DNA of 64,000 nt from Amycolatopsis methanolica 239 (lineage in GTDB: Bacteria; Actinomycetota; Actinomycetes; Mycobacteriales; Pseudonocardiaceae). The stretch covers positions 4,960,001 through 5,024,000 of the forward strand of contig NZ_CP009110.1 of the NCBI RefSeq assembly GCF_000739085.1, written 5' to 3'. The stretch's first letter is position 1, and each line of letters begins with the position of its first letter. Of this stretch, positions 50,803-63,000 are shown one piece after another. The notes under the pieces were generated by a model. The model was not told the origin of the DNA. It made no database searches and worked only from the letters and a program-made list of their open reading frames with translations. Both the position numbers and the translations under genes were made by a program.

Positions 50803-52293
50803 TCAGGCCGCGACGGCCTGGGTGGACGTTTCGGGGGTGGCCGCGGCGGGCGCGCGGTCGCGGCCGATGCTCTTGGCGAGCAGCACGCAGCCGCAGGTGA
50901 CGAGCGTGCCGATGGCGACGGCGAGCAGGAACAGCAGCGGGTTTCCGATGAGCCCGACCACCCAGATGCCGCCGTGCGGGGCCGGCGAGGTGGCGCCGAA
51001 GGCCGCGACCAGCGCGCCGGTGGTGGCGCTGCCGACCATCAGCGACGGGATGATCCGGAACGGGTCGCCCGCGGCGAACGGGATCGCGCCCTCGGTGATG
51101 AACGACAGGCCCAGCAGCCAGCCGGCCTGGCCCGCCTGCCGCTCCGCCGGGGTGAACCGGTTGCGGCGCACCAGGGTGGCGAGCGCCAGCCCCAGCGGCG
51201 GCGTCATGCCGGCCGCCATCACCGCGGCCATGATCACGTAGTTGCCGCTGGCGAGCGCGGCCAGGCCGAAGGTGTAGGCCACCTTGTTCACCGGCCCGCC
51301 CATGTCGAAGGCCATCATCAGGCCGAGCAGGGCGCCGAGCACCCACGCGCTGCCGCCGGACAGGCCGGACAGCCAGTTGCTCAGGCCGGTCTGCGCGGCC
51401 GCGATCGGCTCGCCCACCACGACGACCATGAGGAACCCGACGACCAGCGTGGACACCAGCGGGATCACGACGACGGGCATCACCCCGGCCACCCCGCGCG
51501 GCACCTTCAGCTTCTTCAGGCCCAGCGTGACCGCGCCGGCCAGCAGACCGGACACGAGACCGCCGAGGAACCCGGCGCCGGTCGCGGTGGCGAGCAGGCC
51601 GCCCACGACGCCGGGCGCGATGCCCGGCCGGTCGGCCATGCCGAACGCGATGAACCCGGACAGGATCGGCACGAGCATCTCGAACGCCAGCGACCCGATC
51701 TTGAACAGCACACCGGCGATCCCGGCCTGGCTCATCAGGTCGGACACGTTCTCGATGCCCGGGTAGGTGACGCCCTGGAAGTCGCCGCCGCCGACCTTGG
51801 CCGCGACCTCCGGGCCGCCGATCAGGAACGACAGTGCGATGAGGATCCCGCCCGCCGCGACGAAGGGGATCATGTAGGACACGCCGGTCATCAGCCACTG
51901 GCGCAACCGGGTGCCGACGCCCGCGGAACCGTCCACCTTGGACGCCAGCTCGGGCCCGGGCGCGGACGGCGCGGCTGGGGCCGTGCCGTCCTCGGCGGCC
52001 TTCACGGCCTGGGCGATCAGGCCGGCGCCGTCGTTGATGGCGGCCTTGACCCCGGCCGTGACCGTCGGCTTGCCCGCGAACCGTTCCCGGTCCCGGACGT
52101 CCACGTCCGCGGCGAAGACCACCGCGTCGGCCTCGGCGATCCGGGCTGCGTCGAGCGGCGCGGACCCGGCCGCGCCCTGCGTTTCCACGGTCATCTCGTG
52201 CCCCGCGGCCTTCGCGGCCTGCTCCAGGGCCTCGGCCGCCATGTAGGTGTGCGCGATCCCGGTCGGGCACGACGTGACTGCCACGAACTTCAT
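50803..52293 (-). CDS. fruA: Fructose PTS permease IIBC
   Basis: A 496-residue permease. The IIB domain (1-100) has phosphorylated Cys9 in TSCPTGIAHTYMAAEAL. The IIC domain (about 130-470) has eight to ten hydrophobic segments, with the substrate-site regions GGPVNKVAYTFG and ITEGAIPFAAGDP. It imports fructose as fructose-1-phosphate. The ATG at 52293 overlaps the IIA stop; the IIA domain is a separate protein. Confidence 0.92.
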   Translation of the reverse strand: MKFVAVTSCPTGIAHTYMAAEALEQAAKAAGHEMTVETQGAAGSAPLDAARIAEADAVVFAADVDVRDRERFAGKPTVTAGVKAAINDGAGLIAQAVKAAEDGTAPAAPSAPGPELASKVDGSAGVGTRLRQWLMTGVSYMIPFVAAGGILIALSFLIGGPEVAAKVGGGDFQGVTYPGIENVSDLMSQAGIAGVLFKIGSLAFEMLVPILSGFIAFGMADRPGIAPGVVGGLLATATGAGFLGGLVSGLLAGAVTLGLKKLKVPRGVAGVMPVVVIPLVSTLVVGFLMVVVVGEPIAAAQTGLSNWLSGLSGGSAWVLGALLGLMMAFDMGGPVNKVAYTFGLAALASGNYVIMAAVMAAGMTPPLGLALATLVRRNRFTPAERQAGQAGWLLGLSFITEGAIPFAAGDPFRIIPSLMVGSATTGALVAAFGATSPAPHGGIWVVGLIGNPLLFLLAVAIGTLVTCGCVLLAKSIGRDRAPAAATPETSTQAVAA

Positions 52294-52742
52294 CGTCCGA
52301 GCACCTCCTGGCGGACGAGCTGGACGACGGCGTCCGCGTCGGGCGCGTCGAGCAGCGACTGGCGGAACGACTGGTGGACGAGGCGCCGGGCGAGCTGGGC
52401 GAGGATGGTCATGTGCTCCTCGCCGCCGCCCTCCGGGGCGGCGATGAGGAAGATCAGGCGGGCCGGGCCGTCGGAGGCGCCGAAGTCGACCCCGGCGGCG
52501 GACCGGCCGAAGGCCAGCGTCGGTTCGGTGACGAACGCCGAGCGGGCGTGCGGGATGCCGATGCCGCCCTCGATGCCGGTCGGCATCTGCTCTTCGCGCT
52601 TGCGGATGTCGGCGAGGAAGCCGTCCAGGTCGGTGACCCGGCCTGCGGCGACGAGCCGTCGCGCGAGCCCGGCGGTGACCTCGGCGCGGTCGGTGCCGGG
52701 GACGTCGAGGTCGACCAGATCGGCGGTGATGAGTTCGGCCAT
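52290..52742 (-). CDS. Fructose PTS IIA
   Basis: A 150-residue PTS EIIA-fructose domain with the phosphorylated His65 in GIEGGIGIPHARS. ATG at 52742 (an in-frame GTG at 52751 would add three residues). It passes phosphate from HPr to the IIB domain of the next gene, whose start overlaps its stop. The separated IIA differs from fused IIABC permeases. Confidence 0.9.
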   Translation of the reverse strand: MAELITADLVDLDVPGTDRAEVTAGLARRLVAAGRVTDLDGFLADIRKREEQMPTGIEGGIGIPHARSAFVTEPTLAFGRSAAGVDFGASDGPARLIFLIAAPEGGGEEHMTILAQLARRLVHQSFRQSLLDAPDADAVVQLVRQEVLGR

Positions 52743-52747
52743 CGGTA

Positions 52748-53689
52748 TCACTCCTTGAGTTCTCGGTCGGCGTCGACCGAAGGGTGGATCGTGACGCCGA
52801 TGCGGGCGACATCGGCGGGTGCGGGCATCCGGCTGCCGGGCAGCGCCGCGGCGGCGGCGCCCCAGGCCAGCGCCCTGGCGAGGGCGTCCCGGCCGGCGCC
52901 GCCCGCGGCGAGGAAACCCGCGAGCAGCGCGTCACCGGCGCCGACGGTGCTGCGCGCGACCGGGACGGGCGCCTCGCCGTGCAGGGCGGCGCCGTCGTCG
53001 ACGAGCACCGCGCCGTCTGGTCCGAGGCTGGCCAGGACGGTCTGCGCGCCGCGCGACCGCAGCACCCGGGCCGCCACGACGGCGTCGCCGAGCGTGTGCA
53101 CCGGCATCCCGGCGCACGCGGCTAGCTCCTCCCGGTTGGGTTTGACCAGGTCCGGCCCCGCGGTCAGGGACCGGTCGAGCGCCGCGCCGGACGAGTCGAC
53201 CGCGACGCGCAACCCGGCCTCGTGACCGCGCCGGACCAACCGGGCGTAGGTGTCCCGCGGCGCGCCCGGCGGCAGGCTGCCGCAACCGGCGAGCCAGACC
53301 GTGCCGTCCTCACACGCGCCGAGGGCGGCCTGCAGCAACGCTTCCGCGTCAGCGTCGGAGCACCGCGGGCCGGGCAGGTTGAGCTTGGTGACCACGCCGT
53401 CCGGCTCGGCGAGGGTGATGTTGGTGCGGGTGTCGCCGTCGATCGGCACCTGCCGCACCGCGACTCCCTGCTCGTCGAGCAGTTCGGTGAGCCGCCGCCC
53501 GTCGGCGCCGCCGGCGAACAGGACGGCCGCGGTCTTGCGGCCGTGCGCGGCCAGCGCCCGTGCTACGTTGACGCCCTTCCCACCGGGGTCCAACCGGGAC
53601 GGTCCGGCGCGCAGGACTTCACCACGCCGCAGGGAATCCACCTCGACGGTGTGGTCGAGGCTGGGGTTGGGGGTGACGGTCACGATCAT
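52748..53689 (-). CDS. fruK: 1-phosphofructokinase FruK
   Basis: A 313-residue PfkB-family kinase: GGKGVNVARALAAHG near residue 38 and the catalytic STVGAGDALLAGFLA near 245. It converts fructose-1-phosphate from the permease to fructose-1,6-bisphosphate. The ATG at 53689 overlaps a TGA in the same way that the two upstream degenerate copies of its start do (see the repeat at 53687-53995). Confidence 0.93.
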   Translation of the reverse strand: MIVTVTPNPSLDHTVEVDSLRRGEVLRAGPSRLDPGGKGVNVARALAAHGRKTAAVLFAGGADGRRLTELLDEQGVAVRQVPIDGDTRTNITLAEPDGVVTKLNLPGPRCSDADAEALLQAALGACEDGTVWLAGCGSLPPGAPRDTYARLVRRGHEAGLRVAVDSSGAALDRSLTAGPDLVKPNREELAACAGMPVHTLGDAVVAARVLRSRGAQTVLASLGPDGAVLVDDGAALHGEAPVPVARSTVGAGDALLAGFLAAGGAGRDALARALAWGAAAAALPGSRMPAPADVARIGVTIHPSVDADRELKE

Positions 53690-53995
53690 GCCGCTACCCC
53701 CCTCGGGCCGACCAGGCGCCACACTTCCGCCGACGCCGCAACGAAGCACATGGGACGCAGGACTTCCGCCCGCCGCGGGGACCTCACCTCGAGCGCGCTG
53801 TCCCGGCCCGCGACGGCGACGATCATGCCACCACCACCCTGGGACCAGCCGGACGCCGCACTTCCACGAGCCCAGCGACCGTGCGCTGCACTGCGGGCAG
53901 CTCGGCCACGTAGGCGAGACGGTGGGATGGACCGCCGTGCGCACCTGCAGCCCCAGCTGGGAGTCACGGTGACGATCACGCCAGCACCACCTCGG
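53687..53995 (-). repeat. Three diverged tandem copies of the deoR-fruK junction
   Basis: Read on the minus strand, three junctions follow each other: deoR end at 53976 with GTG 53979; a middle copy ending in VEVRRPAGPRVVVA-stop with ATG 53826; and the true fruK start at 53689, preceded by AEVWRLVGPRGVAA-stop. The deoR end is AAGPEVVLA-stop. The restarts read VIVTVTPSWG, MIVAVAGRDSALEVRSPRRA and MIVTVTPNPSLDH with VEVDSLRRGEVLR in fruK. Spacing between starts is 153 and 137 bp. The stop/start overlap is kept in every copy. Confidence 0.75.
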
Positions 53996-54737
53996 GCCCC
54001 GCCGCGCGCAGGTCCTCGGCAAGACCGTCGTCCAGGCCGGTGTCGGTCACGAACTTGTCCACTTCGGACAGCTCGCCGAAGCGGGCGAGGCAGTCGTTGC
54101 CGACCTTGGTGTGGTCGGCGAGCACGACCGTGCGGCGGGCGGCGCGGATCATCGCGCGCTTGACCGCCGCCTCCCCGATGTCAGGCGTGGTGAGCCCGCG
54201 CTCGGCGGAGATGCCGTTGGTGCCGACGAACGCGACGTCGACGAAGGTGTCGGCGAGCGCGCGCAGCGTCCAGTCCTCCACCGCGGCGAGCGTGCGGCCG
54301 CGGACCCGGCCGCCGAGCAGCAGCACGGTGAGCTGCGGGCGGAGGGCCAGCTGCGGGACGACCGAGACGGCGTTGGTCACCACCGTCAGCTCCCGGTCGG
54401 CCGGCAGGATCTCGGCGAGCCGGGCCGTGGTGGTGCCCGCGTCGAGCAGGATCGCGCCCTCGTCGGGCACCTCGGCGAGGGCGGCCTTGGCGATGCGCTC
54501 CTTCTCGGCCGTCATCACCGCGTCCCGGTCGGCCAGGCCAGGCTCGAACCCGAGCCGCTCGACCGGGATGGCCCCGCCGTGCACCCGGCGCAGCACCCCC
54601 TGGCGCTCCAGCACCGTGAGATCCCGCCGCACGGTCTCCGTGGTGACCTCGAAGTTCGCGGCGAGCCACGACACGTCGACGCGGCCCAGACTGCGGGCCC
54701 GCTCGACGATCTGCTGCTGACGCTCCTCTGCGTACAT
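53976..54737 (-). CDS. DeoR-family repressor of the fructose operon
   Basis: A 253-residue DeoR-type regulator: MYAEERQQQIVERARSLGRV, DVSWLAANFEVTTETVRRDL as the helix-turn-helix, and ILLDAGTTTARLAEIL and ADHTKVGNDCL in the phosphosugar-binding sensor domain. As first gene it likely represses its own operon and responds to fructose-1-phosphate. ATG at 54737 with AAGGAAG upstream and a good sigma-70 promoter before it. Confidence 0.9.
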   Translation of the reverse strand: MYAEERQQQIVERARSLGRVDVSWLAANFEVTTETVRRDLTVLERQGVLRRVHGGAIPVERLGFEPGLADRDAVMTAEKERIAKAALAEVPDEGAILLDAGTTTARLAEILPADRELTVVTNAVSVVPQLALRPQLTVLLLGGRVRGRTLAAVEDWTLRALADTFVDVAFVGTNGISAERGLTTPDIGEAAVKRAMIRAARRTVVLADHTKVGNDCLARFGELSEVDKFVTDTGLDDGLAEDLRAAGPEVVLA

Positions 54738-54859: not shown

Positions 54860-57800
54860 CTAGATGTTGCGCCGGTACTGGCCGCCGACCTCGAAGAACG
54901 CCTCCGTGATCTGGCCGAGCGAGCACACCCGCGCGGCGTCCATCAGCACCCCGAACAGGTTTTCGCCGCGGGTGGCGGCTTCGCGGAGCGCCTTGAGGGC
55001 CTGCTCGGCGTCGTGGCCGTGGCGCTGCTGGAAGTCGGCCAGCCGCGTCAGCTGCGACTGCTTCTCCTCCTCCGTCGCGCGCGCCAGCTCGACCTCGACC
55101 TCGTCCTCCTCCGGGTGCGGGTTGCGGAACGTGTTCACCCCGACGATCGGCAGCGTGCCCTCGTGCTTGAGCCGCTCGTACAGCATCGACTCGTCCTGGA
55201 TGCGGCCGCGCTGGTAGCCGGTCTCCATCGCGCCCAGCACGCCGCCGCGCTCGGCGATCCGGTCGAACTCGGTGAGCACGGCCTCCTCGACCAGGTCGGT
55301 CAGCTCGTCGATGATGAACGAGCCCTGCAACGGGTTCTCGTTCTTCGACAGGCCCCACTCCTTGTTGATGATCATCTGGATGGCCATCGCGCGGCGCACC
55401 GAGTTCTCCGTCGGCGTGGTGATCGCCTCATCGTAGGCGTTGGTGTGCAACGAGTTCGCGTTGTCGTACAGCGCGCACAGCGCCTGCAGCGTGGTGCGGA
55501 TGTCGTTGAAGCTCATCTCCTGCGCGTGCAGCGACCGGCCGGAGGTCTGCACGTGGTACTTGAGCTTCTGCGAGCGCTCGTTGGCGCCGTAGCGCTCCTT
55601 CATCGCGACCGCCCAGATGCGGCGCGCGACCCGGCCGAGCACCGAGTACTCGGCGTCCATGCCGTTGGAGAAGAAGAACGACAGGTTCGGCGCGAAGTCG
55701 TCGATGTGCATGCCGCGCGCGAGGTAGGACTCGACGTAGGTGAACCCGTTGGCCAGCGTGAACGCCAGCTGCGAGATCGGGTTCGCCCCGGCCTCGGCGA
55801 TGTGGTAGCCGGAGATCGACACCGAGTAGAAGTTGCGCACCCCGTGCTCGATGAACCACTCCTGGATGTCGGCCATCATGCGCAGGCTGAACTCGGTGGA
55901 GAAGATGCAGGTGTTCTGGCCCTGGTCCTCCTTGAGGATGTCGGCCTGCACCGTCCCGCGCACCTGGCGCAGCGTCCACTCGCGCAGGTCCTCGGCCTCC
56001 GACGGCGTCGGCTCGCGCCCGTGCTCGGCGCGGAAGGCGTCCATCCGCTGGTCGATCGCGGTGTTCAGGAAGAACGCCAGGATCGTCGGCGCGGGGCCGT
56101 TGATGGTCATCGACACCGATGTGTTCGGCGCGGTCAGGTCGAAGCCGTCGTAGAGCGCCTTCATGTCGTCCAGCGTCGCGATGGACACGCCGGAGGTGCC
56201 GATCTTGCCGTAGATGTCCGGTCGCGTGTCCGGGTCGTGCCCGTACAGCGTCACCGAGTCGAACGCCGTGGACAGGCGCTTGGCCTCGGAGTCGGCCGAG
56301 AGGTACTTGAAGCGGCGGTTGGTACGGAACGCGTCGCCCTCGCCGGCGAACATGCGCGCCGGGTCCTCACCCTCCCGCTTGAACGGGAAGACACCCGCGG
56401 TGTAGGGGAAGTACCCGGGCAGGTGCTCGCGGCGCAGGAACGACAGCAGCTCGCCGCGGTCGGTGTAGCGCGGCAGCGCCACGCGCGGGATCCGGTTGCC
56501 GGACAGGGTTTCCCGCCACAGCTGGGTGCGCAGCTCCTTGTCCCGGATGCGGACGACCAGCTCCTCCTGCCGGTAGGACTCGGACAGCTCGTCCCAGCGC
56601 TCCAGCAGCCCGGCCACCGACGGGTCCACTTCGGACTCCGCCTTCGCCAGCAGCTCCTCGATCGGGCCGGTGTCCGCGCCGTCCGCGGCGAGCGCCTCCT
56701 TCGCGGCCCGCAGCTGGTCGACCTTGCGCACGGCGGCGACCTGGTCCCGGGTCTTCTCGTGGTAGCCGCGCACCGTGGCGGCGATGTCGGCGAGGTAGCG
56801 CTCGCGCGACGGCGGGATGATCACCGAGGCGCCGGTGGACACCTTGGTCTCCACCTTCGGCAGCTGACCGGCCGACACCGACAGGCCGCGCTCGGCCAGC
56901 GCGTCCCGCAGGTACTGGTACAGCGCGGTCACACCGTCGTCGTTGAAGCGCGCGGCGCTGGTGCCGAACACCGGCATGTCCTCGGGGGCGACGCCGAACG
57001 CCTCCCGGTTACGCACCATCTGGCGCGCCACGTCGCGGCGCGCGTCCTCGGCGCCCCGGCGCTCGAACTTGTTGATCGCCACCACGTCGGCGAAGTCGAG
57101 CATGTCGATCTTCTCCAGCTGCGACGCGGCGCCGAACTCCGGCGTCATCACGTACAGCGAGTAGTCGACGTGGTCCACGATCCCGGCGTCGCCCTGCCCG
57201 ATGCCGGGGGTCTCGACGATCACCAGGTCGTAGCCCGCGGCCTTGCAGGCCAGCACGGCCTCGTCCAGGCCCTCCGGCACCTCCCCGCCCGCCTGCCGGG
57301 TCGCCAGCGAGCGGAAGTAGACCTGCGAGCCGTCCAGGCCGTTCATCCGGATCCGGTCGCCCAGCAGCGCACCGCCGCCGCGGCGCCGGGTCGGGTCGAC
57401 CGCCAGCACCGCGATGCGCAGCTTGTCCTCCTGGTCCAGCCGGAAGCGCCGGAGCAGCTCGTCGGTCAGCGACGACTTGCCCGAGCCGCCGGTGCCGGTG
57501 ATGCCCAGCACCGGGACCGTGCGGGCGCGCGCCGCCTCCGTGATGCGGGCCAGCCGGTCGTCGGCGACGCTGCCGGCCTGCAGCTGCGTGATGAACCGCG
57601 CCAGGGACGGCACGTCACCGGCCAGCAGGTCGTCGTCCGACCCGGCGGGCACCGCGGCCAGGTCGTAGTCGCACTCCTTGATCATCAGGTTGACCATGCC
57701 CGGCAGGCCCAGCTGGAGGCCGTCGTCCGGGGAGAAGATGCGCGCGACGCCGCGGGAGTGCAGCAGCTCGATCTCCTCGCGCACGATGACGCCCCCACCG

Positions 57801-58096
57801 CCGCCGTACACCTTGATGTGCCCGGCGCCGCGCTCGTTCAGCAACTCGACGAGGTAGCTGAAGTACTCCACGTGGCCGCCCTGGTAGGCGCTGATCGCGA
57901 TGCCGTGGGCGTCCTCGCTGATCGCTGCCGTGACGACCTCGTCCACCGACCGGTTGTGGCCGAGGTGGATGACCTCCGCACCCTGCGACTGCAGGATGCG
58001 CCGCATGATGTTGATCGAAGCGTCGTGCCCGTCGAACAGACTCGAGGCGGTGACGAACCGCACCGGGTGCACGGGACGGTGAAGGGAGGCGTTCAT
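54860..58096 (-). CDS. icmF: Fused isobutyryl-CoA mutase IcmF
   Basis: A 1078-residue natural fusion: cobalamin-binding domain (about 12-140; FDGHDASINIMRR with His24), a MeaI-like GTPase chaperone (P-loop GTGGSGKSS at 201-209, NKFERRGAEDA) and the C-terminal substrate-binding TIM barrel (about 560-1078; SISGYHIAEAGANPISQLAF). It interconverts isobutyryl- and n-butyryl-CoA with adenosylcobalamin, the GTPase protecting the cofactor. ATG at 58096 behind TTGAGGC. It stands alone between fru and the conservon, with its own terminator. Confidence 0.94.
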   Translation of the reverse strand: MNASLHRPVHPVRFVTASSLFDGHDASINIMRRILQSQGAEVIHLGHNRSVDEVVTAAISEDAHGIAISAYQGGHVEYFSYLVELLNERGAGHIKVYGGGGGVIVREEIELLHSRGVARIFSPDDGLQLGLPGMVNLMIKECDYDLAAVPAGSDDDLLAGDVPSLARFITQLQAGSVADDRLARITEAARARTVPVLGITGTGGSGKSSLTDELLRRFRLDQEDKLRIAVLAVDPTRRRGGGALLGDRIRMNGLDGSQVYFRSLATRQAGGEVPEGLDEAVLACKAAGYDLVIVETPGIGQGDAGIVDHVDYSLYVMTPEFGAASQLEKIDMLDFADVVAINKFERRGAEDARRDVARQMVRNREAFGVAPEDMPVFGTSAARFNDDGVTALYQYLRDALAERGLSVSAGQLPKVETKVSTGASVIIPPSRERYLADIAATVRGYHEKTRDQVAAVRKVDQLRAAKEALAADGADTGPIEELLAKAESEVDPSVAGLLERWDELSESYRQEELVVRIRDKELRTQLWRETLSGNRIPRVALPRYTDRGELLSFLRREHLPGYFPYTAGVFPFKREGEDPARMFAGEGDAFRTNRRFKYLSADSEAKRLSTAFDSVTLYGHDPDTRPDIYGKIGTSGVSIATLDDMKALYDGFDLTAPNTSVSMTINGPAPTILAFFLNTAIDQRMDAFRAEHGREPTPSEAEDLREWTLRQVRGTVQADILKEDQGQNTCIFSTEFSLRMMADIQEWFIEHGVRNFYSVSISGYHIAEAGANPISQLAFTLANGFTYVESYLARGMHIDDFAPNLSFFFSNGMDAEYSVLGRVARRIWAVAMKERYGANERSQKLKYHVQTSGRSLHAQEMSFNDIRTTLQALCALYDNANSLHTNAYDEAITTPTENSVRRAMAIQMIINKEWGLSKNENPLQGSFIIDELTDLVEEAVLTEFDRIAERGGVLGAMETGYQRGRIQDESMLYERLKHEGTLPIVGVNTFRNPHPEEDEVEVELARATEEEKQSQLTRLADFQQRHGHDAEQALKALREAATRGENLFGVLMDAARVCSLGQITEAFFEVGGQYRRNI

Positions 58097-60026: not shown

Positions 60027-63000
60027 TCACCCTCCATGGTTCCTTGATCGGGGTCGGCGGACTGAGCGGTCCGGTGCCTTCCACGCTGAACACCTTGCTG
60101 GAAACTGCTCAGCCTGCCACGCACATCCTGCGGGTCACGACGTGTCCGCGGCGCCGGGGCGGGGGCCCCCGGGGCCAGTGCGCTGCCGGGCAGCAACTGC
60201 TCACCGCGGCGCCGCTTGGGCAGCCCGGCCGCGGTGAAGTTCGAGGGCGGCGACGAGGAGACGGTCTGCACCGCGGCCCAGCTCTCGTCCGACGCGAACG
60301 ACCAGGCGCCGTCCCCGCCTGCCACGGCGTCGCCCTGCCGCCGCTCGCCCTGCGGCTGCTGGCCCTGCGGTTGCTGGCTCTGCGGCTGCGGCTCGGCCGG
60401 GGTGTCCGGCGCGGGTCCCGGCCGCTGGAAGAGGCCGGTGCCCTCGCTGGTGCCGCCGGGCCGCTGGAAGAGGCCCGTGCCCTCGCTCTGGAAGAGACCG
60501 GCGCCGCTGTCCGTACGCGGCTGCCGCTGCGGAAGGCCGCTGTCGGCAGGCTTGGGCTGCCGCTGCGGCAGGCCGGCGCTTGTTTCGGCCTGAGCCGACG
60601 CCGACTGCCGCTGTGGGAGGCCGGTGCCGGTCTCGGTCTGCCGCTGGGGCAGACCACTGCCGGTTTCGCCGGGCTGCCGCTGAGGCAGAGCGGCATCGGC
60701 CTGTGCCGAGACCGGCTGCTGCTGGGACACGCCACTGTCGGTGGACTTGGGCTGCCGCTGCGGCAGGCCACTTGCCGGCTGCGCCTCGCCCCGCGAGGCC
60801 GCCTCGTCCTTGGGCTGCCGCTGGGGCAGACCACTGTCGGCGGGCTTGGGCTGCCGCTGCGGCAGGCCACTTGCCGACTGCGCCTCGCCCCGCGAGGCCG
60901 CCTCGTCCTTGGGCTGCCGCTGGGGCAGGCCCGACTCGGTTCCTTCCGCGTCCTTCGGCTGCGGCAGGCCCGGCCCGGCCTGGGCTGCGGGCTCCTTCGA
61001 CTGAGAGCGCTCGGTCTCCGAGGCCTGCGCGGCAGCCTTCGGCTGGCGGCGCGGCAAGCCGCTGTCCGTCGATCCCGCGGACTTCGGCTCGCTCTTGGGC
61101 AAACCGGCGCCCGTCGGCCCCGCAGTCTTCGGCTCCCGCTGAGGCAGGCCGGCGTCCGTCGATCCTGCGGGCTTCGGCTCGCGCTTGGGCAAGCCGCTGT
61201 CCGACTGCGACTTCGCAGCCTTCGGCTCGCGCCGGGGCAGGTTCTCGTCCGTGGACTTGGCCGAGGCTGGCTCGGCCGTCTTCGGCTGGCGGCGCGGCAG
61301 GCCGGTGTCCGCCGGTTCGGACTGGGCAGGCTTGGCGCCTTCCTTCGCAGAGCCGCCCGCGGCCTTCGGCTCCCGCCGGGGCAGGCCGGCATCCGTCGAC
61401 CCCGCAGCCGTCGGCTCGCGGCCGGGCAAGCCGGCCTCCGCCGCGGGCTGGGCGCTTTCCGAGGCGCCGGGCTTCGGGCGGCGCTGGGGCAGGCCGCTGT
61501 CCAGCTGGGGCGCCTCCGCCGACGGGCGCGGCTTCCGGTCCTCCGCCGAGTCCGCGGCAGCAGCTCCCGGGCGCGGCTGACGGCGCGGCAGCCCACCCTG
61601 CTCAGCCCCCGACGAAGCCTCGCTCGCCGTAGTCGCCGCGCTGCTCTGCGCGCTGGCAGCGCTTTCCGGCGCCGCGGCGCCTTCGGGCTGGTCGCGCTTC
61701 GCGTGGCGGGCCCGGTTCACGCCGCGCTGGAAGCTGCTCAGCCGGCCCCGCACGTCCGCCGGGTCGCGGACCGGGATCTCGCGCTGCGGGTTCGGCGCCG
61801 GGGTCTCCGCCGCGGCGCTGCCGGGCAGCAACTGCTCGCCACGGCGGCGCTTCGGCAGGCCCGCATCGGTGAAGGTCTTGGGCTCCACCTGCGACGCCGC
61901 CTGGACCGCGCGCCAGTTCTCGTCGACCGCGAAGTCCCAGCCGCTGGCCGCCTTGTCGCCCGAGGCGCTCTCCGCCTTGTCCGAAGTGGACTCGGCCGTC
62001 TTCGAAGCGGCGGCCGGCGGGTCGTCGCTGCGGAACCAGGCCGACAGGGTCTCGTCGAAGATCGGCGTCGTCTCGCGGCGCGACGGCGGCGGCGTCGCGG
62101 GCTTCGGCTCGTTCGCCGCCGAGCTCCACCACTCCGACAGCGGGCTGCTGTTCGCCGTGAACAACGCCTTGCCGCTGGGCAGCTCACCCGGCGCGGGCTC
62201 CGGCTCCGGTTCCGCAGGCGCCTCGGCAATGGGAGCCGGGGCGGGCGCCGCAGGCTCCTCCCCCTCCGCCGGGATCGGCGTGAACAACGCGGTGCCGGAG
62301 ATCTCCAGGTCCGACGGCGGCCGCGGCGGCAGCACACCTGAGTGCCCGTTCTGCGTCCAGGACGGGCTGCTCGCCCCGTCGCCCGGCGTCGGCGCCTGAC
62401 CGAAGTTCGCCAGCGCCTCCGGCCGCCCGGCGCCGTTGACCGTGCGCCGCCGCGGCAACGCGGTCGACGGGTCCGGCCGGACCGGGGCGGGCGCGGGCAG
62501 GTCCATCACGAGGTCGGCAGGCACGGTGACGGTGGCCCGCACACCCACGATGTCCTTGCCGCCGTGCAGGACCACGCCGATGTCGTGGCGCCCGGCGAGG
62601 CGCCCGACCACAAACAGGCCCATGCGGCGCGAGGTCGCGAGGTCGACCGTGCCCGCCTCGGTCAGCCGGGCGTTGGCCTCGGCGACCTCGGCCTCGTTCA
62701 TGCCGATGCCCTGGTCGATGATGTCGATGACCAGACCGCCGTGGTCGGCGGCGCGGGTCGTCACCGTCACCTGGGTCTCCGGGGCGGAGAACGCGGTCGC
62801 GTTGTCCAGCAGCTCCGCGACCAGGCGCATCAGGTCGCTCGCCGCGAAGCCGACGATGCGGGCCTCCGGCGGCGTCTGCACGACAACGCGCTGGTACTGC
62901 TCGATCTCCGACACCGCGGCGCGCAGCACGTCGGAGGTGGTGACCGGCTGGCCGGAGCGGCGGCCCGGCTCGGCGCCGGAGAGCACCATCAGGTTCTCGT

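Follow-up and report, generated by a model that had tools for sequence, protein, structure and literature searches.

The window, a stretch of 64,000 nt from Amycolatopsis methanolica 239, holds a regulator gene and a sugar kinase gene that are joined through a spacer in which the gene junction itself seems to recur. The question raised by this locus is what these recurrences are, and whether translation is still carried across them from the first gene to the second. All features of the locus lie on the minus strand and are given in window coordinates. The first gene encodes a fruR-like regulator of the DeoR family (deoR, 253 aa, 53976–54737; Pfam DeoRC 1e-49, HTH_DeoR 4.7e-16) and the second, fruK, encodes 1-phosphofructokinase (52748–53689, its ATG lying inside an ATGA; NCBIfam TIGR03828, 309 bits against a cut-off of 292). 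The gene for the PTS fructose EIIA component follows fruK in the operon (52290–52751; TIGR00848 with 115.9 bits, PF00359), and profile searches matched the gene order fruR-fruK-fruA as a whole (TIGR03828, TIGR00848, PF00455, and PF08220). The stop of fruK also lies inside a GTGA (GTGATACCGATGGCC, 52740–52751); possible starts of EIIA are thus GTG 52751 and an in-frame ATG 9 nt further on. Upstream of deoR, the window contains a 1078-aa open reading frame (54860–58096), which resembles a B12-dependent acyl-CoA mutase fused with a G-protein domain (putatively IcmF-like). Further along, two tandem repeats with unit lengths that are multiples of three, one of 99 nt (2.2 copies, 93% matches, 60714–60928) and one of 90 nt (2.3 copies, 61032–61239), probably belong to a repetitive coding region.

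Three stop/start overlaps of the form NTGA mark the junction and its copies. The first is a GTGA (53976–53979) that contains the TGA of deoR and a GTG start; the second is an ATGA (53823–53826) and the third is the ATGA that contains the true start of fruK (53686–53689). The starts at 53979, 53826, and 53689 had been located correctly in the preliminary description, and they are spaced by 153 and 137 nt. Two units result. Unit 1 (53827–53979, 153 nt) consists of a short remnant of a fruK head followed by a copy of the deoR tail, and was delimited from repeats, register, and relatives; unit 2 (53690–53826, 137 nt, 2 mod 3) consists of a fruK-head copy followed by a deoR-tail copy, and was delimited from repeats, alignment, and register. 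Each unit thus runs from a fruK head into a deoR tail, the layout expected from tandem duplication of the junction. A 68-nt direct repeat occurs in three copies across all three NTGA sites, 52 nt of the fruK head reappear in unit 2, and the inner part of unit 1 (53889–53923) repeats deoR 54060–54094 (repeat family D4). The tails of the three copies read GPEVVLA, GPRVVVA, and GPRGVAA, each followed by a stop, and the heads read VIVTV, MIVAV, and MIVTV.

The similarity of the copies was compared with that of all NTGA pairs separated by 80–400 nt, on either strand, in the window and a further 240 kb of the same genome, 304 kb altogether. The first three places among these 5,642 pairs, by ungapped identity in register, are taken by the three junction pairs, with 42, 42, and 39 matches out of 65 positions against a background mean of 20.6 (sd 4.4). 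In local alignments, copy 2 scores higher against the fruK head than any of 1,000 genomic windows (0/1000 as high). Copy 1 is not significant when aligned locally and unaided, its score being reached by 55 of 1,000 genomic windows, and its reading as a junction copy appears to be supported through its register and through the relatives, evidence that is needed beyond the weak alignment. The proposal of diverged tandem junction copies thus holds up, each of them carrying an NTGA overlap and a Shine-Dalgarno (SD)-like stretch, and their similarity stands above that of genomic background of the same origin. A search of the genome for further copies of the unit returned this locus only, and a dispersed repeat in A. 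methanolica was thereby ruled out.

From the stop of deoR to the start of fruK, a single reading frame of 97 aa stays open (53686–53979). Its GTG lies on the deoR stop and its TGA on the fruK start, so that it overlaps both neighbouring genes by the 4 nt of an NTGA. For the frame of a unit to end on the next start, the unit length has to be 2 mod 3, as in unit 2 (137 nt). Unit 1, with 153 nt, is 0 mod 3, and the frame opened at the deoR stop therefore reads on through unit 2 to 53686, with 53826 serving as an in-frame internal start within it. The 28-aa frame of the deoR-tail copy in unit 1 (53823–53909), which ends GPRVVVA and stop, lies outside the frame opened at 53979. The expected ends of the copies (GP-x-x-V-x-A and stop) and their restarts are thus present, but the frame of unit 1 does not close a small reading frame of its own. 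Likewise, the two extra re-initiations proposed beforehand are not required, since one 97-aa relay with one extra re-initiation is enough to lead from deoR to fruK. An open frame by itself is weak evidence because stop codons are sparse in GC-rich DNA; the +2 frame of the spacer is also open.

We consider it probable, at roughly 0.62, that the spacer is a translational relay that arose by repeated duplication of the fruR(deoR)-fruK junction, selection for continued coupling of fruK letting only in-phase insertions survive. In the ancestral state, fruK would have started in a 4-nt GTGA or ATGA overlap and been served mainly by ribosomes terminating on the regulator gene. A tandem duplication of the junction, comprising about 36 codons of deoR tail and about 30 codons of fruK head, would then have occurred in the A. 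methanolica group, an event that leaves both deoR and fruK intact, and the copies would have gone on duplicating and decaying. Coupling would survive such an event only where the duplicated length joins the FruK head to the DeoR tail in frame; the new small reading frame would then begin on the deoR stop and end on the fruK start. Ribosomes would terminate on deoR, re-initiate on the relay, terminate again, and re-initiate on fruK. What selection would retain are the NTGA ends, the SD stretch in the deoR-tail copy, and the net phase, and not the peptide. In published reporter work on E. coli and H. volcanii, re-initiation was almost abolished when some 20 nt lay between the genes (PMC10666635). 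An untranslated gap of 290 nt would therefore be expected to uncouple fruK, and only in-phase insertions would keep the coupling. What we infer is the use of the relay by ribosomes and the role of coupling as the target of selection; fruK might also be initiated independently, given its own strong SD stretch.

All three starts are preceded by SD-like stretches. GAGGTGG, inside deoR, serves the relay start (53983–53999; duplex of −8.5 kcal/mol, a strength reached by 3.2% of genomic windows), AGGGTGG the internal start (53830–53846; −7.8 kcal/mol, 4.4%), and GAGGGGGG the start of fruK (53693–53709; −12.3 kcal/mol, <0.1%). Across four Amycolatopsis genomes, each of the 13 unit or fruK starts has a duplex of −7.8 kcal/mol or stronger, which places it in the top 4.4% of genomic windows. 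All three codon positions contribute evenly to the differences between relay copies (12/15/10, 9/14/12, and 6/7/9), whereas those between the true deoR and fruK ends fall almost entirely on third positions (1/0/7 and 0/0/8). Single gaps in the alignments of relay copies are often not multiples of three, and the unit lengths are still in phase (185/179; 137/131). The peptide is therefore free to vary, while NTGA ends, SD sites, and net phase are kept.

That the 97-aa frame encodes a functional microprotein has a negligible probability: the frame is open and possesses a start and an SD stretch, but it has no homologue in NCBIfam or Pfam, the peptides differ among the four relatives, and the differences are even over codon positions. 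A functional relay peptide was ruled out on the missing family match and the missing codon constraint. A tuning leader, in which extra re-initiations set or regulate the FruK:FruR ratio and the internal SD and ATG perhaps act as a booster, would fit the presence of an SD stretch and a start in each unit, and short upstream reading frames are used elsewhere for ribosome delivery (PMC12548453). Copy number and layout vary in every species, however, and there is no conserved peptide. The spacer matched no Rfam family, its predicted RNA fold is no more stable than that of shuffled sequences (z 0.75), and a scan, by consensus only, detected neither a promoter nor a terminator inside it. A structured RNA was ruled out by the Rfam result and the ordinary fold. 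The suggestion that the leader tunes FruK expression thus finds no support and is very improbable; unconstrained relay codons and an RNA fold that is not unusual speak for a relay that is passive rather than for a regulatory leader.

The closest relatives of the window by whole-genome search are Amycolatopsis, and three of them, A. tucumanensis (G002), A. deserti (G011), and a third genome (G017), carry their own, differing sets of junction copies. From start to start, the spacers measure 290 nt in the window, 385 nt in G002, 131 nt in G017, and 651 nt in G011, with 2, 2, 1, and 4 units, respectively. The unit lengths are 153 and 137 nt (window), 113 and 272 nt (G002), 131 nt (G017), and 185, 180, 107, and 179 nt (G011, whose four units read as three relay frames). 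None of the units in the four group members has a length of 1 mod 3, and the chains all finish on the start of fruK. The frames of G011 and G002 are fusions of FruK heads and DeoR tails, e.g., VIVTVTPNPSLDHTVELNSLRRGEVLRAGPSHRLARCAVQ...VPRVVSA and stop, and the relay peptides of the four relatives are unlike in length and sequence. In G002 the second unit contains 54 fruK-head codons, whose 54 aa match FruK at 96% identity; with only 4 differences from fruK in 159 nt, all at third positions, this copy is very recent. Since deoR is 98–99% identical among close relatives and the spacers differ, the spacer evolves much faster than the genes. The spacers of related species do contain internal junction copies; together with a similarity above genomic background, this contradicts both of the outcomes that the preliminary description named as refuting it. 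In the outgroups A. palatopharyngis (L057) and A. marina (L058) the genes meet in a plain 4-nt GTGA overlap, which makes the junction duplication a derived state.

A survey of actinobacterial fruR-fruK loci (311 loci, 204 distinct deoR-fruK junctions, 202 after two distant paralogues were dropped) places these spacers in a wider frame. An NTGA is found at the deoR stop in 195 of the 202 junctions, in contrast to 21 of 102 loci at the fruK stop. The two genes overlap by exactly 4 nt at 155 junctions and by TGATG at one; at 23, fruK begins in the overlap through an in-frame N-terminal extension, which may simply be a longer FruK N-terminus. Relay frames occur at 17 junctions (a single relay at 14, and two, three, or four relays at one junction apiece), with a stop/start overlap of 4 or 1 nt at each step of every chain. 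Only six junctions are uncoupled (L206, L236, L245, L261, L271, and L281), and the NTGA at the deoR stop is lost in all six, so coupling is not indispensable. Their spacers measure 6–481 nt and contain no relay; they are useful natural controls for an uncoupled fruK. All 40 gapped junctions that keep the NTGA lead into fruK, and none is out of phase. Outside Amycolatopsis, relays were found in Actinoplanes italicus, A. flavus, Dactylosporangium siamense, Nonomuraea glycinis, and Actinophytocola oryzae, in a Geodermatophilaceae MAG and an Actinophytocola MAG, and at loci L159/L160/L163, L240/L243, and L308. The shortest have 4–6 codons (MRAGRA, VRRRR, and VRRR) and end exactly on the next start.

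Individual relays show further features. That of N. glycinis (L107:3757-3905) contains an internal direct repeat, which is not dispersed in its genome. The L308 relay, in a 74-nt spacer from another family of the order, contains two similar segments with a GGAGG and a start (CCCGGAGGAGGCAGCGTGCGTCACC and CCCGGAGGATGCGGCATGATCGTCACG) and is possibly a second case of junction self-duplication.

By parsimony on a FastTree DeoR tree, relays account for 10 changes, extensions for 10, and uncoupling for 6. If phase were free, the chance that about 20 changes all avoid 1 mod 3 would be (2/3)^20, about 3e-4, and the 10 relay changes alone, with phase 2 against phase 1, give about 1e-3; these values are rough, derived as they are from only about 20 parsimony changes that are taken to be independent. 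They bear on a neutral explanation, in which slippage or unequal crossing-over produced a harmless tandem duplication that is now decaying and the phase is coincidence. Such a process would agree with relay codons that evolve without constraint, with unit numbers and lengths that vary in every relative, with the very recent copy in G002, and with the readiness of direct repeats to recombine. It would not account for the lack of out-of-phase units in the group and of out-of-phase gapped NTGA junctions among the 202 loci, for the low phase probabilities, or for the retention of SD stretch and NTGA at 13 of 13 starts. The earlier alternative of a decaying slippage product therefore describes the decay of the sequence but leaves the retained phase, NTGA, and SD unexplained, and we regard it as unlikely. 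The claim that translational coupling is retained fares better: with no gapped NTGA junction out of phase among the 202, it does look kept.

A different role for the same open frame would be ribosome cover against Rho-dependent polarity or mRNA decay, with no delivery of ribosomes to fruK. Rho loads on untranslated RNA (reviewed in PMC12548453), E. coli transcripts become less stable when they contain long untranslated regions (PMC10666635), and the long relays leave no untranslated stretch. Relays of 4–6 codons, however, protect almost nothing and yet stop exactly on the next start, and polarity would allow a relay to stop several nucleotides off the start of fruK. Cover predicts much the same as a translational relay but leaves this exact overlap of the shortest relays unexplained, and we hold it to be improbable.

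A second kind of relay emerged at the fruR-fruK junction of the Actinophytocola MAG (L097:3757-3925), where each of the four relay frames is a copy of one dispersed 38-bp unit, [AG]TGACCGCCGACGTACTCnTCnCCGCGGAGGCGGCATC, which reads M/V-TADVLFSAEAAS and stop and carries its own GGAGG. The repeat forms a 13-codon reading frame (MTADVLFSAEAAS and stop) and occurs in 1–5 tandem copies at NTGA junctions (L097, L312-L318, and L332-L355), the units being spaced by 38 or 39 nt, never by 37 or 40. With up to 2 mismatches allowed over 33 nt, it was detected in 42 of 249 Pseudonocardiaceae genomes (17 of 46 genera), and a reversed control pattern gave no match. It lies on an NTGA gene junction leading into the next long frame at 28 of 31 fetched loci; two of these, L313 and L333, seem to be one and the same site and ought to count as one. 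The repeat is absent from Amycolatopsis, the genus of the window, and no description of it was found in a search of largely open-access literature. It is MIRU-like and merits a separate study.

It is conceivable, at somewhat less than even odds, that coupled actinobacterial junctions in general accept insertions only as in-phase relays, produced by at least two routes: self-duplication of the junction, as in Amycolatopsis, and insertion of the 38-bp repeat at NTGA sites across the Pseudonocardiaceae. If that general reading is true, junction duplication would be one source of MIRU-like relay elements and thus a possible origin for them. The insertions at the fruR-fruK junction form a natural series: their sequence, length, and copy number vary freely, whereas phase and stop/start overlap are kept. 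By comparison among genomes, the series is evidence for the importance of termination-reinitiation to the cell. It illustrates how a translation link may persist despite insertions, as known from mycobacterial MIRU repeats. The relays, of 4–97 codons and in 1–4 steps, form a ready set of test constructs, and for annotation they are a warning that such small reading frames can be relays rather than protein genes.

Among known systems, termination-reinitiation at ATGA and TGATG overlaps (PMC6728339; PMC10666635) has the identical 4-nt geometry, and its strong dependence on distance explains the need to bridge a gap. Those overlaps join two genes directly, whereas here one or more non-functional reading frames lie between. 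In a search of largely open-access literature, MIRUs and integrons were the only other cases of such a relay. Class 1 integrons contain short reading frames in attI1 (ORF-11/ORF-17/ORF-18) and in attC (PMC8876359). Like the present relays, they are described as translated, have no peptide function, and pass ribosomes to the next gene by termination-reinitiation (PMC8876359); they differ in that they lie within recombination sites and are neither junction-derived nor tandem.

The closest likeness is to the MIRUs, whose insertion sites are start codons and which bring a reading frame coupled at −4 nt (Supply et al., 1997, cited in PMC12548453), e.g., at senX3-regX3 (Supply et al., 1997, via PMC12548453 and PMC4213456). 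In layout, both have a small reading frame coupled to its neighbour at −4 nt, the A. methanolica relay overlapping both genes by 4 nt; both occur in tandem copies of variable number between two genes of an operon (here 2, 2, 1, and 4 units); and in both, insertion would have little effect on expression. MIRUs are dispersed and apparently mobile, in contrast to the window unit, which is confined to one locus. By this test of dispersion the window unit is not a MIRU, though it would work like one, and it is built from the ends of its own flanking genes, the tail of deoR and the head of fruK.
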